Of a stretch of DNA of 64,000 bases, positions 3,407-39,467 are shown piece by piece (position 1 is the first letter of the stretch; the number at the start of each line of letters is the position of its first letter). The translations under genes and the position numbers were made by a program. The stretch is from Halanaerobium hydrogeniformans (lineage in GTDB: Bacteria > Bacillota > Halanaerobiia > Halanaerobiales > Halanaerobiaceae), in NCBI RefSeq assembly GCF_000166415.1, contig NC_014654.1, positions 1,364,001 to 1,428,000 of the forward strand. The letters run 5' to 3'. The notes beneath the pieces were generated by a model. That model did not search any database and was not told where the DNA came from. It saw only the letters and a list, made by a program, of their open reading frames with translations.

Positions 3407-6304
3407 TTGAAACTTAAAAGTATTTATATACGGGATTTTGGTATTTTTAATAATCAGTATTTAGAAGGTCTTGGTGATGGTCTGGTTGTAATAGGTGGTC
3501 ATAATCGTTCCGGGAAAAGCAGTTTTTTAAATATAATTAAAAATCTTCCCTATGGCTTACCTCAAGATGGTTCTATACCTCCTGCTCGTGAACAGTATTA
3601 TATAGAAACAGTGTTAAAAACCGATGATCAAAACTATAATTTAATTTTAGATGGTTTTGCTAAAGCAAAAGCACAGCCAATAAATAACAGTAATCCTGAT
3701 GAAGATTTAGATGCTGTGCAATTATTTAATGATCTTGATAGGTTAACATACCAGCAATTATTTACTATAAGTTTAGATGAATTACAGCATGTTTCTAAAA
3801 TCAGCAAAAATAATAAAAAGCAAAAAAAGGTTTTTTCTCTACTGCTTGGAGCTGGTCTTTCTGAATTAATAAAAGTACCGGAAATAGCAGATAATTATTT
3901 TAATGATGCTGTAAAAATTGGTGGAAAACTGGGGAGTACAAATGTAAGTCAATTTAAAAGTTATTATAATCAGATTAAAGAAGCAGAAAAAGATAAAGAT
4001 AAAGCTCTAAAACAGTTAGACGATTTTATAGCAAAAAGAAAAGAACTGGCTGAAAAAGAAGAAAATCTAGAGTTGCTTGAAAAAAATAACAAAAAATTAA
4101 CAAGAAAAGAATTTTTATTTGATCTTTTAAAAAATAATTATCAAAACTATCAAGAGATTGAAGAACTTGAATTTAAGTTGAATCAGTTTTCTGTTAAAGA
4201 TTTAGATTCAGAAAAATTCAGTCGGGAAAATTATGAAAAAGCAATCTCTTTTAAAAAAAGCTATCAAGTTTTAAAAGAAGATTATCAAAGTAAAAAAGAC
4301 AATTTAATATCTTTGTCTCTTGAAGAACACAGAGAAAAAATCCTGGCAATTATTATAGAAAATTCTGGACAAATAAATACATATAAGTCTAAAAAAGAGG
4401 TGTACATAGAAAAAATACGTAGTTATTTAGAAGCTAAAAATGAATTGCATGAAAAAAGAAATATACTAGAAAACGAGCTTAAAGAGATTAATTCTGAGTG
4501 GGATGAACCACTTCAGGAGATAAAAAATATAAAAATTGATGAACTTAAACAAAGGGATTTAAGTAGAACAATAGAAACTTTTAGAAATATAAAACAACAA
4601 TTAGAAAGCTTAAAAAAAGAAAAAGAGGATCTAAAAGAAAAACATAACGCTCATCTGGAAGAATTAAAGCAATATGATGATCTCAATCCAGAATCTACTC
4701 TTAAAAGAACTTATCTTTTTGGCTTAATAGCCTTTATTCTTGCAATTTTTACAGCTTTTTATAATCTGAGTGCAGCCTTAATCACTTTGCTTTCTGCTTT
4801 GTTTTTAAATCATATTTACTTTTCTACTCAATATAAACCCCTTTTAGAGAAAGAAAAAGCAAAAGAAGAGTTGGAAATTGTAATCAAAAAAAATGAGAAA
4901 AAACTTAATAGCTTGAATTTGAAACTTAAAGAACTTGAGCAGGATTTAAAAAATCACGAAGAAAAATTAACTAACTATCGACTTGAACTGGGAATAGAAG
5001 ATAGTCAAGCAGTTAGTATAATAAGTGATTATTATAGAATGATTAAGGATAAGAAAAGCAGGTTGAATTTATTAAATAAAGACCAAGAGAAGTTGGAAGT
5101 AAAGAGAAAGGAATTAGAAGCTGTATTAAAAGAAATAATAAAAATAATAAATAATATTTATCAATATACTGAAAGTGAACTACTTAAAGTAAATGAAGCT
5201 AATTTAGTTACTAAATATCAAGAAATTTTTGTTGAGTTTAAAAATATTGTGAAGAATTTAGAAGTTGTTAATAGCTTTAAAGAAGTTGAAGAAAAATATC
5301 TCGGTCTTGAATCTGATATAAAGAGTTTTTTTAAAGCAAATCAAATAAATTTTGAAGCTGATCTATTATCTGCTTTAAATAAATATCTTAACAAAGCAGA
5401 AGAATTTTCGGAATTCAAAAATTTAGAAGAAAAATATTTAAATAAAAAAGACCAGCTGAGTTCTAGTTTTAACTCTTCAGATAGAATTCGCAGTTATCTT
5501 GTCAATTATTTTGCTGAACCTGAAGGTATTGATAATGAAATAGGAGCTTTAACATCATTTAAAAAACTTTATCGGGGTTTTTCCTCACTTCAGGCTGTGG
5601 AAAAAGCATATAAAGAAACTTCAACTGAACTTAGTGAAAACAAAAAGCAGCACAAAATATTACTGGAAGAAATTAATACATTAAAAAATGAAATTGATAG
5701 ATTAGCATCTTCACAGGATGTTCAAAAAGCACATCAAAAAATTAATGATGCCAGAAGTGATTTGAGAAATCTTGCAGAAAGATATGCAGTTAATAAGAGT
5801 GTTTATTTTATTTTAAACAAGTTGAGGGAGAGATTTATCAATAGAGCAGAAGATGAGCTCTTAAAGCCTGCAGCTGATATTTTGGCAGAAATAACCTCAG
5901 ATGAATATAATTCTATTGAGACTTCTGGAGATCTTGAAGATACAGAATTCAAAACTATTTTAGCAGATGGTAGAACTTTTAATAGAGTTGATTATTTAAG
6001 TAGAGGAACAATGGAACAGCTCTTTTTAGCAGTTCGTTTGAGCAGAATAAACGAAATCAAACCTCATTTACCGGTTGTTTTAGATGATTCTTTGGTTAAT
6101 TTTGATCACAGTCATTTACTTAATACTGTTAAGGTTATTTCTAGACTTGCTCAGACTCATCAAGTTTTTGTTTTAAGCTGTCATCCACATTTAATAAAGT
6201 GCCTGAAAAACATTTCTCAATCTGCTCAGTACTGGAGATTAGAAAAGGGGAGTTTTGAACTGACTGATGCTGAATCTCTCCAGGAACATCTTTTAATTGA
6301 GTGA
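3407..6304 (+). CDS. yhaN: YhaN-like SMC/Rad50-type ATPase
   Basis: A 965-residue coiled-coil ATPase. The Walker A motif GGHNRSGKSS is near residue 30. Long heptad-rich coils fill the middle. The ABC signature-like LSRGTMEQL and Walker B PVVLDDSLVNFD are near the C-terminus, with the switch histidine in LSCHPH. A strongly hydrophobic segment of about 35 residues, near residues 435-475, interrupts the coil, as in other YhaN proteins, and suggests membrane attachment. It starts with TTG behind AAGGTGGAG, two bases after yhaO, so expression is probably coupled. Confidence 0.85.
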   Translation: MKLKSIYIRDFGIFNNQYLEGLGDGLVVIGGHNRSGKSSFLNIIKNLPYGLPQDGSIPPAREQYYIETVLKTDDQNYNLILDGFAKAKAQPINNSNPDEDLDAVQLFNDLDRLTYQQLFTISLDELQHVSKISKNNKKQKKVFSLLLGAGLSELIKVPEIADNYFNDAVKIGGKLGSTNVSQFKSYYNQIKEAEKDKDKALKQLDDFIAKRKELAEKEENLELLEKNNKKLTRKEFLFDLLKNNYQNYQEIEELEFKLNQFSVKDLDSEKFSRENYEKAISFKKSYQVLKEDYQSKKDNLISLSLEEHREKILAIIIENSGQINTYKSKKEVYIEKIRSYLEAKNELHEKRNILENELKEINSEWDEPLQEIKNIKIDELKQRDLSRTIETFRNIKQQLESLKKEKEDLKEKHNAHLEELKQYDDLNPESTLKRTYLFGLIAFILAIFTAFYNLSAALITLLSALFLNHIYFSTQYKPLLEKEKAKEELEIVIKKNEKKLNSLNLKLKELEQDLKNHEEKLTNYRLELGIEDSQAVSIISDYYRMIKDKKSRLNLLNKDQEKLEVKRKELEAVLKEIIKIINNIYQYTESELLKVNEANLVTKYQEIFVEFKNIVKNLEVVNSFKEVEEKYLGLESDIKSFFKANQINFEADLLSALNKYLNKAEEFSEFKNLEEKYLNKKDQLSSSFNSSDRIRSYLVNYFAEPEGIDNEIGALTSFKKLYRGFSSLQAVEKAYKETSTELSENKKQHKILLEEINTLKNEIDRLASSQDVQKAHQKINDARSDLRNLAERYAVNKSVYFILNKLRERFINRAEDELLKPAADILAEITSDEYNSIETSGDLEDTEFKTILADGRTFNRVDYLSRGTMEQLFLAVRLSRINEIKPHLPVVLDDSLVNFDHSHLLNTVKVISRLAQTHQVFVLSCHPHLIKCLKNISQSAQYWRLEKGSFELTDAESLQEHLLIE

Positions 6305-14921: not shown

Positions 14922-15169
14922 GGGGTAGAGGCGCGAATTATAAATTAGTAACTTAAAGTTTAATTTAAGCTTAAGATTTTAAGTGAAAGGTTTATTCGCC
15001 GAAGTGGTTAATTGAGCTTAAGCATTTAACTGCTGGGTCTGTATAAAATATGTACAGAACTGTCATTAAAAGTTTAATCCAGACTTTTAGTGTTGAGCTA
15101 TCTCAAAAGATTTGGAAGAGGTGATTTCTCTGGTTAAGCTATTTAACTCAGCGAATTCGCTGAGTTTTT
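14922..15169 (+). promoter_or_regulatory. Lysine riboswitch (L box) with terminator
   Basis: The conserved L-box blocks appear in the right order: AGAGGCGCG, AGTAAC, GAAAGG, CGCCGAAG, GCTGGGTCTG, ACTGTCAT and GAGCTATC. P1 can form between 14922-14928 and 15098-15104. A terminator follows, with 9-bp stem AACTCAGCG/CGCTGAGTT (15145-15166) and a run of T. In this family lysine binding stabilises P1 and allows the terminator to form, shutting off the downstream lysine/DAP genes. Confidence 0.95.
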
Positions 15170-34824: not shown

Positions 34825-34886
34825 TTTATTAAATTCAAAATTTTAAGTAACTAAGATATTAAAAAAATGAGATGGAGGATGAGAGA

Positions 34887-36056
34887 ATGAAAGAGAAGAG
34901 TAGAGAAGAGCAAAGAAGTGGTTTTTTTGGTGATTTTGGAGGCAGAATAGTTCCAGAAGATTTAGCTTCTGCTTTAGAGGAATTAAAAGAGGGGTTTGAA
35001 GAAATCAAAGACAATAAAGAATTTCGGGATGAACTTGCTATTCTTTTTAAAGATTATGTAGGTAAACCCAGCCCTTTATATTTTGCTAAAAATCTCACTA
35101 AAGAAGTCGGAGGAGCAAAGATATACTTAAAAAGAGAGGATTTAAACCACACAGGTGCTCATAAAATTAATAACTGTATTGGTCAGGCGTTACTGGCCAG
35201 AAAAATGGGCAAAAAAAGAATTATTGCTGAAACTGGTGCTGGTCAACATGGTGTAGCAACAGCAACTGCCTGTGCACTTTTTGATATGGATTGTGAGATT
35301 TTTATGGGAGAAGTTGATACAAAACGCCAGGAATTAAATGTTTTTAGAATGGAATTGCTTGGTGCTAATGTTAATGCTGTTTCTGCAGGAGATGGAACTT
35401 TAAAAGATGCAGTTGATGAAGCATTAAAAGATTTTGTTACAAATGTTGATACTACTTTTTATATGCTAGGTTCTGCTGTTGGACCTGATCCTTATCCAAC
35501 TATGGTTAAAGAATTCCAGTCCATAATTGGTAAAGAAGCCAGAATGCAGATTTTAGAAAAAGAAAATAAATTACCTGATTACATAGTTGCCTGTGTTGGT
35601 GGAGGAAGTAATGCAATTGGATTATTTGCTCCTTTTGTAGATGATAAAGAAGTTAATATATTAGGTATTGAGCCAGGTGGTAAGGGTGATAAACCCGGAC
35701 AAAACGCAGCTCCATTAACTTTTGGAAAACCTGGAGAATTACATGGATTTAAAAGTTATGTTCTTTATGATGAAAATGATGAGATTTCTCATACTCATTC
35801 TATTGCAGCAGGACTTGATTATCCCGGTGTAGGACCAGAGCACGGTTATTTAAAAGATAGTGGTAGAGCTAAATATACAACCGCTTCTGACCAGGAAGCA
35901 TTAGACGCTTTCCATCTTTTATCCGAAAAAGAGGGTATTATACCCGCTTTAGAAAGCGCTCATGCTGTTGCAGGAGGAATGAAAATAGCTAAAGATCTAA
36001 ATGAAGATCAAATTGTAATAATCAATCTCTCAGGTAGGGGAGATAAAGAGATGTAG
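34887..36056 (+). CDS. trpB: Tryptophan synthase beta chain (stand-alone)
   Basis: A 389-residue PLP enzyme with the TrpB signatures [13 protein letters not shown] lysine in [29 protein letters not shown] and GPEHGYL. It converts indole plus serine to tryptophan. No trpA or other trp gene is nearby, so it may be an orphan copy that salvages indole. The ATG at 34887 is chosen because GGAGGATGA lies just before it. The ATG at 34872 overlaps that site. Confidence 0.92.
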
Positions 36057-36224: not shown

Positions 36225-36283
36225 TTGACATTGCTTTTAAATAATACTAAACTGTTAAACAAGCTACTTGTGTACACAAGTAG
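36225..36283 (+). promoter_or_regulatory. Promoter with perfect 20-bp GntR-type operator
   Basis: TTGACA (36225-36230) and TAAACT (36248-36253) are spaced by 17. The perfect palindrome CTACTTGTGTACACAAGTAG at 36264-36283 starts about four bases after the expected transcription start. Its TTGTGTACACAA core resembles HutC/TreR-subfamily operators. The regulator encoded next likely binds here and represses itself and chrA. Confidence 0.75.
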
Positions 36284-36328
36284 TATTTTTTAAATTAACA
36301 AAAATTTAATTTCACAGGAGGAGATATT

Positions 36329-37036
36329 ATAGCTAAAAATCATTTATCAGCAATCTATAAAAATATTGCTGCAGAAATCACTCAAAGAATATATAAGGGG
36401 GTTTATCCATCTGGAGCATATCTTCCTTCAGAAAACAAATTATCTCAAGAATTTGAAGTTACTCGTTCAACGATTCGTAAAGCCCTAAATGTTTTAAAAG
36501 AAAAAGGTACAATTGAAAGCAAACAGGGAAAGGGATATTTAGTTAAAGAACTGCACTGGGAACAGAGCTTGCTGCAATTTTATAGTTTTGGGCAAAATAT
36601 AGCTCAAAATATTGAAAATCCTGAAAGCAAATTACTTGAACACAAAAAAATAAAAGGTCTAAAAAGTATTGATGAGTTTGTTTCTACTGAACTCTGGCAG
36701 ATAAATAGGCTTAGATTAATGAATGAAGTGCCTTTAATTCTTGAAACATCATATATACCTATTGATTATTTAAAAAACTTTGAAATCCCTGAATTAAAAC
36801 AGGATTCATTGTATAACCTTTTAAAGAAAAATGATAATCATGTTGTAAGAGCAAAAGAATATTTAGAACCTGTTTTACCTTCATTAAATGATCAAGAGTT
36901 GTTAGAAGTTAAAGAAGATAGTTGTTTATTCCAGACTATAAGATACAGTTATGATTCAGAAAATAAACTAATAGAACTAAGAGAAAGTTTGATAAGAGGA
37001 GATCATTTTAGTTTTTCAGTGGAAATGACTCTATAA
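36329..37036 (+). CDS. GntR/HutC-family transcriptional regulator, ATA or other rare start
   Basis: The frame 36329-37036 encodes a GntR winged helix (YPSGAYLPSENKLSQEFEV, RSTIRKALNVL) and a UTRA-like ligand domain (LRLMNEVPLILETSYIP). There is no ATG, GTG or TTG before the helix. AGGAGGAG at 36316-36323 is followed by ATT then ATA then GCT AAA AAT. The ATA is at fair spacing and would give MAKNHLSAIYK. Either a rare ATA/ATT start is used, or the start codon has mutated and the gene is silent. It overlaps nothing and ends two bases before chrA. Confidence 0.75.
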   Translation: MAKNHLSAIYKNIAAEITQRIYKGVYPSGAYLPSENKLSQEFEVTRSTIRKALNVLKEKGTIESKQGKGYLVKELHWEQSLLQFYSFGQNIAQNIENPESKLLEHKKIKGLKSIDEFVSTELWQINRLRLMNEVPLILETSYIPIDYLKNFEIPELKQDSLYNLLKKNDNHVVRAKEYLEPVLPSLNDQELLEVKEDSCLFQTIRYSYDSENKLIELRESLIRGDHFSFSVEMTL

Positions 37037-37037
37037 T

Positions 37038-37661
37038 ATGAGGAGTGTTATAAATCTATCAATGAATAAAAACATTAAACGGTTATTTAAAATGTTTATA
37101 ACCTTTTTTAAAATAGGACTTTTTACCTTTGGTGGCGGACTCGCAATGATTCCAATTATGGAAAAAGAATTTGTTGATAAACAGGGTTGGGTTGATAAAG
37201 AAAAGTTTGTAAATGCTATCTCTATCACTCAAACTGTACCAGGTGCAGTAGCAATTAATATGTCCATATTTTTTGGTTATAATATTGCCGGTTTTGCCGG
37301 AGCATTAGTAGCAGCTATTGGGATTGCTTTACCATCATTTTTTGTGATTTTAACAATAGCTATAGTTTTTAGAAACTTTAATGATTATGTAATTGTTCAG
37401 AACATTTTAAGAGGAATTCGTCCAGCAGTTGTGGGCTTAATTATTTATGCAGGTCTTGATTTAGCAAAATATATAGAATGGGATCCACCTTTAGCCGCAA
37501 CCATTAGTCTAGTTCTTTTAATTGGTTTAACTTTCGCTGTAAATCCAGCATTTTTAATTCTTATGGCAATATTTTTCGGCTCAATTTCTTACAAAAAAGA
37601 TTATTTCATAAAGCTAAAAAATAAAGTGCAGAGAAATTATAAAAAAGTGGATCGGGTATAA
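37038..37661 (+). CDS. chrA: ChrA-family transporter, first half-size protein
   Basis: A 207-residue protein of the chromate transporter (CHR) short-chain type. It has the conserved FKIGLFTFGGGLAMIP near the N-terminus, the PGAVAINMSIFFGYNIAG block, and about five membrane spans. Short CHR proteins work as pairs of homologous halves, and the second half is at 38943. The two are now separated by an IS3 element. The ATG at 37038 is one base after the regulator's stop, so expression may be coupled. The chromate substrate is assigned by family only. Confidence 0.87.
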   Translation: MRSVINLSMNKNIKRLFKMFITFFKIGLFTFGGGLAMIPIMEKEFVDKQGWVDKEKFVNAISITQTVPGAVAINMSIFFGYNIAGFAGALVAAIGIALPSFFVILTIAIVFRNFNDYVIVQNILRGIRPAVVGLIIYAGLDLAKYIEWDPPLAATISLVLLIGLTFAVNPAFLILMAIFFGSISYKKDYFIKLKNKVQRNYKKVDRV

Positions 37662-37730
37662 TTAATTAAACAGTTTTTTCTCGGACATGATATAATAAGA
37701 TAATAACAAACTAAAATGGAGGAAAATATC

Positions 37731-38003
37731 ATGCCTACAAAATATCCTGAAGAAATCAAAAGAAAGGTTGTTGCTCTGGCCAATAATGGTAAAAATCAAA
37801 CTGAAATACTCAATGAATATGGAATGGCAAGGTCCACACTTCATAAATGGATAAAAGACTATAATAACTCAGGGTCATTCAGCGCTAAAGATAATAGATC
37901 TGATAAAGAAAAAGAATTAATTAAATTACAAAAAGAAAACAAGCAGCTTAAAATGGAGAATGATATTTTAAAGCAAGCGGCGCTGATAATGGGACGAAAG
38001 TAG
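37731..38003 (+). CDS. IS3-family OrfA
   Basis: A 90-residue protein with an HTH_Tnp_1 helix-turn-helix (YPEEIKRKVVALANNG, ARSTLHKWIKDY) and a leucine-zipper-like C-terminus (ELIKLQKENKQLKMENDILK). The ATG at 37731 follows GGAGG. The heptamer TTTAAAG at 37967-37973, in the X XXY YYZ phase, would allow a -1 frameshift into orfB to make the OrfAB transposase. Confidence 0.9.
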   Translation: MPTKYPEEIKRKVVALANNGKNQTEILNEYGMARSTLHKWIKDYNNSGSFSAKDNRSDKEKELIKLQKENKQLKMENDILKQAALIMGRK

Positions 38004-38044
38004 CAGTCATTAAGGCAAACAGGGATAAATACAGTATCAGCGCC

Positions 38045-38842
38045 ATGTGCAGAGCACTCAATATATCAAGGGGGATGGTTTATTATACCCCTAAGAAAAA
38101 ACAGGTTAACATTGAACTGGAAAGTGAAATAATTAGAATCTTTAAAGAAAATAAAACTCATTATGGAACCAGAAAAATCAAAAGAAAACTAGCTAAAAAA
38201 GGCTATCAGGTATCCAGACGCAGAATAGGTAAAATAATGAAAAAATATGATCTGGTTTCCACTTACACTAAAAAGCAATACAAAGTCCATTCTCCAAGCT
38301 GTAATGAAGATAAAATAGCTAATGTTGTAAACAGAGAATTTGATAAAAAAGAAGCTCTAGATGTTGTTGTCAGTGACCTAACCTATGTTAATGTAAAGGG
38401 CAAATGGAACTATATCTGCCTGATAATTGACCTCTTTAACCGCGAATTTGTTGGTTATGCAGCAGGCAAAAAGAAAAATGCTGAATTAGTAACTGAGGCT
38501 TTTAAAAGTATTAAAAGACCACTGGATCAAATTAATATTTTACATACTGACAGAGGTAATGAATTTAAAAATAAAGCAATCGATGATATTTTAGACAACT
38601 TCGATATTGAGCGTTCTTTAAGCAATAAAGGCTGTCCTTATGATAATGCAGTTGCAGAAGCAGCCTTCAAAGTAGTTAAGACTGAATTTGCTTATGATAG
38701 AATCTTTAATAGTTTTCAAGAGCTGGAATATGAGCTATTTGACTATGTTAACTGGTATAATAACCACAGAATCCACGGGTCATTAGATTACCTAACACCT
38801 GTTGAATATAGATATTTAATGTTCGATAAAAAATTGTTGTAA
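38045..38842 (+). CDS. IS3-family OrfB transposase (DDE)
   Basis: The integrase core shows the DDE residues: D in VVVSDLTYVNV, D in LHTDRGNEF and E in YDNAVAEAAFKVVKTE. The HTH_21 N-terminal region (THYGTRKIKRKL) is intact. The frame is open back to 37964, so the protein is probably made as an OrfAB fusion through the TTTAAAG slip site rather than from the ATG at 38045. All parts look intact. Confidence 0.9.
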   Translation: MCRALNISRGMVYYTPKKKQVNIELESEIIRIFKENKTHYGTRKIKRKLAKKGYQVSRRRIGKIMKKYDLVSTYTKKQYKVHSPSCNEDKIANVVNREFDKKEALDVVVSDLTYVNVKGKWNYICLIIDLFNREFVGYAAGKKKNAELVTEAFKSIKRPLDQINILHTDRGNEFKNKAIDDILDNFDIERSLSNKGCPYDNAVAEAAFKVVKTEFAYDRIFNSFQELEYELFDYVNWYNNHRIHGSLDYLTPVEYRYLMFDKKLL

Positions 38843-38942
38843 AAAGGGTTGACAATCCAAAGTTTATAAAGAGGTTTATATTGATTAGATTAGAAGTGAA
38901 ATTATAAAATTTTAATTGATTAATTTAAAAAGTGGTTGTAAA

Positions 38943-39467
38943 ATGCTGGAAATAATAATTGCTTTAATGAGATCGTTTTTTAAAGTTGGTTTGTTTGGCT
39001 TCGGTGGCGGTTATGCTATGATATCACTTTTACAGAGGGAATTAGAAAGATATGGCTGGCTAACCATGCAAGAATTTGTTGATATAATCGCTATTGCCCA
39101 GATGACACCAGGAGCTATTGCTGTAAATAGTGGTACTTTTGTTGGTTTTAAATCAACTTCAAGTGTTTTAGGAGCATTTTTTGCAACTTTAGCTGTTATA
39201 ACACCCTCATTTATTCTAGTTTTACTCTTAGCTCATTACTATAAGAAAATAAAGGATTCTGATTATATAAATGCTGTAATTAGATATATAAGACCAACCG
39301 TAATCGGTTTGATTATTTTAGCAGCACTTTCACTGGTTAAAACAAGTATTATCGATATTCAGACATTTATAATTTCAGTATCAGTACTGGGAATAATGAT
39401 AAAAACAAATATTAATCCAATTACCTTAATTGTTTTAGCAGGAGTTTCAGGAGCACTAATATATTAA
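38943..39467 (+). CDS. chrA: ChrA-family transporter, second half-size protein
   Basis: A 174-residue short-chain CHR protein with FKVGLFGFGGGYAMIS, QMTPGAIAVNSGTFVGF and five or so membrane spans. It is homologous to, but clearly different from, the half at 37038. Its start is taken as the ATG at 38943 with AGTGG upstream. An in-frame TTG at 38916 lacks a site. The IS3 element upstream separates it from the regulator's promoter, so it may depend on readthrough or on a promoter near the IS3 end. Confidence 0.86.
   Translation: MLEIIIALMRSFFKVGLFGFGGGYAMISLLQRELERYGWLTMQEFVDIIAIAQMTPGAIAVNSGTFVGFKSTSSVLGAFFATLAVITPSFILVLLLAHYYKKIKDSDYINAVIRYIRPTVIGLIILAALSLVKTSIIDIQTFIISVSVLGIMIKTNINPITLIVLAGVSGALIY

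Follow-up and report, generated by a model that had tools for sequence, protein, structure and literature searches.

Initiation at non-canonical start codons placed behind extended Shine-Dalgarno (SD) sites has been described in S. aureus, where it reached about 10% of that from AUG in poor medium (PMC13009471). The AUA start of ccpN, which encodes a repressor, reached up to 30% of AUG in rich medium in the same organism (PMC13009471). An AUA start was also assigned there to infC and, limited to one lineage, to citZ, and the IF3-mediated autoregulation of infC is known from E. coli (cited in PMC13009471). Among repressors of the GntR family, the HutC-type proteins YvoA and DasR (structures 2wv0, 4u0v, 4zs8) combine a winged helix-turn-helix (HTH) with a UTRA domain. 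A literature search for GntR regulators paired with chromate transporters found no paper on such a pairing, and none was found on repressors with an ATG-to-ATA change.

The gene studied here (gntR) lies in a window of 64,000 nucleotides from the salt-loving bacterium Halanaerobium hydrogeniformans, whose genome is one finished contig of 2,613,117 bp. Upstream of gntR, the order is a gene at 34872–36056, presumably tryptophan-synthase-beta-like, a terminator-like hairpin, a promoter, a palindrome and an AGGAGG motif. The features of the locus are as follows.

36225–36253, plus strand: sigma-70-type promoter (TTGACA 36225–36230, 17 bp, TAAACT 36248–36253), read from the sequence and conserved in the aligned sister genome G003
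36264–36283, no strand assigned: perfect 20-bp palindrome over the transcription start, predicted GntR operator, from core recurrence and rarity in the genome
36316–36321, plus strand: Shine-Dalgarno AGGAGG, from 16S-tail pairing
36329–36331, plus strand: ATA, putative gntR start codon at 7-nt spacing, aligned with the ATG of orthologues
36329–37036, plus strand: gntR, GntR-family regulator with UTRA domain, HutC-type, 235 aa, open throughout and with domain matches
37062–37661, plus strand: chrA1, with a chromate transporter domain and with its final codons (VDRV, stop) coming from the insertion sequence (IS); start placed by GGAG spacing and sister alignment
37648–38859, plus strand: IS3-family insertion sequence, 1212 bp, with 3-bp target duplication AAG, from family match and copy comparison
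38943–39467, plus strand: chrA2, second chromate transporter half, from domain match

The stop-to-stop frame of gntR spans 36299–37036 and is closed upstream by an in-frame stop at 36296, which rules out a leaderless or upstream start. The first ATG, GTG or TTG in this frame is the TTG at 36569 (codon 81), 3' of the HTH-coding part; a truncated UTRA-only product from this codon was rejected, as it would lack the HTH and no SD was seen by eye. As originally predicted, only ATT at 36326 and ATA at 36329 stand at start spacing, 4 and 7 nt after AGGAGG. The window has 50 frames that reach 150 aa (counted from stop to stop, with antisense frames kept in), and gntR alone among them had no canonical start within its first 60 codons.

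The coding frame itself proved intact. Read from the ATA, it holds 235 codons without a stop and two complete domains, the GntR winged HTH (PF00392) at the N-terminus, with 69.3 bits against a cut-off of 27, and the UTRA domain (PF07702) at the C-terminus, with 86.4 bits against 23.8. A search of gntR for stops, frameshifts and deletions that would mark further pseudogene decay found none. None of the 25 NCBIfam matches listed for the protein reached its own cut-off. By sequence the protein is a member of the GntR family, of the HutC/UTRA type, with the same two domains as YvoA and DasR.

The promoter, the ribosome site and the flawless palindrome described by the original prediction were all found in place. 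Pairing of the gntR leader with the genome's own 16S tail was strong, at -12.4 kcal/mol compared to a median of -10.4 for the leaders of the window, of which 7 of 49 were as strong as that of gntR or stronger. Perfect zero-spacer palindromes of at least 20 bp numbered four in the window, whereas 50 mononucleotide shuffles averaged 0.22. The window also contains longer perfect palindromes of 30 bp (977–1006) and 22 bp (15145–15166).

The core of the palindrome, CTTGTN4ACAAG, occurs at two places genome-wide, here and at 609265, while a control pattern occurred at none. It is present in seven of the eight loci of the closest orthologues, being absent in L056. In the first 47 loci, the core was found, besides the window's own three copies, in 4 of 44 (L033–L036); in L035 both core sites are some 1.2 kb beyond the gntR orthologue, near another gene and not at its own promoter. 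That the core recurs close to orthologues and is rare in this genome, rather than the length of the palindrome, leads us to regard the 20-bp sequence as very likely the operator of GntR.

The genome holds 154 counted instances of AGGAGG followed by ATA at a spacing of 5–9 nt, and the analysis covered 95 distinct ones. Thirty of these 95 led into a frame open for 60 codons or more, with a canonical start nearby in 20 and none in 10. These 10 comprised gntR, seven frames with an in-frame canonical start upstream, and the loci L137 and L128. The frame of L137 ran past the end of the sequence covered and resembles the inside of a longer enzyme, and that of L128 (71 codons) shows no signs of a gene. 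The only credible gene without a canonical start among the examined sites was gntR.

Another case of a near-cognate start behind AGGAGG is infC (IF3) of the same genome (L172 and L158, near genome position 1641900), which has no ATG, GTG or TTG at SD spacing. The sequence TGCATAAATATCGTT at the start region of infC is kept in 12 of 12 genomes of the genus, unlike the ATA of gntR, and AGGAGG precedes infC in the genus rows that extend far enough upstream. The missing canonical start and the conservation of this region indicate that the ribosome of H. hydrogeniformans uses a near-cognate start here, probably ATC at 9 nt. In this organism infC is a precedent for near-cognate starts, though not for ATA.

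Orthologues of gntR were sparse. A search of the order (38 genomes) found three close ones (71, 70 and 58% identity), and scanning genome contigs by alignment gave 13 relatives, five of which (39–57%) were next closest; a scan of the contigs with a single GntR protein gave no match. Within the family (14 genomes) an orthologue was present in G000 only, the next best match being 33%, and under a strict cut-off 398 genomes of the phylum gave matches in G000 and G022 only. A plasmid collection returned only short matches, in the chrA region.

All eight closest orthologues (L033–L035 and L056–L060, 39–71% identity) have an ATG at the aligned first position or close to it, indicating that the ATA is derived. 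The other eight relatives (30–35%) also begin with ATG, except L063, in which TTG is the likely start by eye. A near-cognate start conserved among orthologues, as in ccpN, was thus not found, and the evidence points to recent loss of an ATG more than to a rare start that is old and conserved. The original prediction had offered natural initiation at a rare codon, keeping the repressor low, or a recent ATG-to-ATA mutation that releases chrA from control; derived loss of the ATG is favoured by the eight orthologues and by a sister genome that lacks gntR (below), and the one-base change is unproven. The 16-mer AGGAGGAGATATTATA at gntR also precedes ATGG elsewhere in the genome, as ...TATAATGG, in front of a gene that we take to be P-type ATPase-like. 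Deletion of three bases following an ATA would therefore yield the sequence at gntR just as a G to A substitution would, and either change fits. The two options of the original prediction would also be compatible with each other, as AUA behind a strong SD works at a reduced rate in another Bacillota species (PMC13009471).

The gntR protein branch measured 0.243 against 0.152 and 0.150 for its relatives, and that of chrA1 0.335 against 0.232 and 0.294. A separate tree of nine protein rows did not resolve how the close rows branch. The excess of gntR is somewhat above that of chrA1 and fits either mild relaxation or a lineage rate. Accelerated decay of the GntR protein was rejected, since the window branch shows a mild excess only; nothing points to prolonged decay, and a null allele of very recent origin would give the same picture.

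Both chrA halves lie downstream of gntR in four of the eight closest orthologues: Anaerovirgula multivorans (L058), G018 (L033), G031 (L034) and a Thermotogota MAG (L056). These operons resemble that of the window in their orthologous regulator, their two chrA halves and, in three of four, the operator core, but differ in having an ATG start and no IS between the chrA halves. The halves likewise adjoin without an IS in G003. The insertion sequence had been placed downstream; it begins instead inside the last codons of chrA1, at 37648. The claim that it alters the operon stood, since it swaps these codons and moves chrA2 1.2 kb farther from the promoter. The tail of chrA1, VYKEVYID when read from the empty site and near the VYKEVYND of G003, has become VDRV, and the transporter domain is intact (residues 17–181 of 207, numbered from 37038).

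The element has the termini TGGATCG.../...CAATCCA and is one of 11 near-full copies in the genome, one of which (259281–260479) is 100% identical, indicating a recent insertion. A hybrid promoter for chrA2 at its right end was considered and rejected, as TTGACA is present there with no -10-like hexamer at 15–19 bp by eye. Elsewhere in the genome, the right-end TTGACA of the copy at 714635–715842 (L050) lies 18 bp before a flanking TATAAT, and the two may form a hybrid promoter that serves the gene behind them. The copy at 2552542–2553739 (L053) is by eye not flanked by a matching 3-bp duplication, whereas five other copies in the comparison are.

In the sister genome G003, of the same genus, the upstream gene, promoter, chrA1 (86–88% identity), chrA2 (88%) and following genes are kept in the same order. 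No gntR lies between promoter and chrA1 (L171, G003:C11, minus strand, about 3450–3620), and the operator position is eroded to the point that the palindrome is not readable any more. As the gene is present in more distant relatives and G003 still shows a remnant of the operator, loss of gntR in G003 is the simpler reading, although a gain in the lineage of the window could in principle leave the same pattern. A second chrA pair is orthologous across the genus (72–77% identity). In seven genomes (G002 and G004–G009; loci L161 and L164–L169) another GntR gene, with 23–28% identity to gntR, comes after this pair. That gene is absent after the pair in G000 and G003, and, within 1.3 kb, in G001 and G011 (L162, L163, L173 and L174 being the loci without it); G010 had no chrA match. 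With G001 and G011 also lacking it there, this absence does not set G000 and G003 apart.

The preferred reading, held at somewhat better than even confidence, is that gntR is a hypomorph, i.e. that the repressor gene of an autoregulated gntR-chrA1-chrA2 operon lost its ATG in the H. hydrogeniformans lineage and that gntR is now weakly translated from AUA. With a strong SD 7 nt upstream, the initiator tRNA would still start at the AUA, though at low efficiency, yielding a little intact GntR. By prediction, GntR acts on the 20-bp operator as a repressor of its own promoter. Weak translation of gntR would then shift the set point, with operon mRNA and ChrA1 rising before repression balances, and chrA1 would be partly derepressed.

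The start-codon change may instead have abolished GntR, leaving a very young pseudogene and a constitutive chrA1, as expected in G003. This is rather unlikely, but draws on the derived loss of the ATG, on the sister without gntR and with an eroded operator, and on the second chrA pair, which in G000 and G003 also lacks the GntR gene found in seven genomes of the genus. It also agrees with the 72 transposase genes annotated and 96 pseudogenes given for the genome in PMC4237134. Set against it are the open frame, the perfect operator and the strong SD of gntR, and the measurable initiation at AUA with a strong SD in another Bacillota species (PMC13009471).

An adaptive AUA start that holds GntR at a low level, as has been proposed for ccpN, is improbable. 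The strong SD and the repressor-type protein would suit such a role, and ccpN of S. aureus and B. subtilis, a repressor gene with AUA, a strong SD and an expected reduced translation, offers a precedent. However, the AUA of ccpN is conserved between species and its initiation was measured (PMC13009471), whereas the codon of gntR is not conserved, its use as a start is predicted, and the sister lacks the gene altogether. In its limitation to one lineage, the AUA of gntR resembles that of citZ in the S. aureus NCTC 8325 lineage, which differs in encoding a metabolic enzyme and in its reporter-tested initiation (PMC13009471).

A one-base sequencing or assembly error in the deposited genome is very improbable: the comparison covers one genome of the species and the orthologues have ATG, but the genome is finished in a single contig, and a lone substitution falling exactly on the start codon would be improbable a priori. 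Initiation elsewhere in gntR is extremely improbable, for although ATT 36326 is in frame and also near-cognate, its spacing is only 4 nt, the stop at 36296 closes the frame upstream, and the next canonical start, TTG 36569, loses the HTH.

A further reading, regarded as doubtful, is that the AUA is a tuned set-point device, by which chrA output would be raised and inducibility kept, with a repressor sensitive to IF3 and growth. If so, chrA would be coupled to growth, and the lineage would be an intermediate between full control (the orthologues with ATG) and lost control (G003).

Weak initiation at AUA is already known as a mechanism, and the gntR locus adds a new, well-placed example. It also provides a regulator that gene finders limited to ATG, GTG and TTG would truncate or miss. 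As judged from sequence comparison, the window probably represents an early, start-codon stage in the loss of GntR control. Together with its relatives it forms a comparative series for how a local repressor may be shed, in three stages: a gene with ATG in more distant relatives, a weakened start with a perfect operator in H. hydrogeniformans, and a gene that is gone, with an eroded operator, in the sister.
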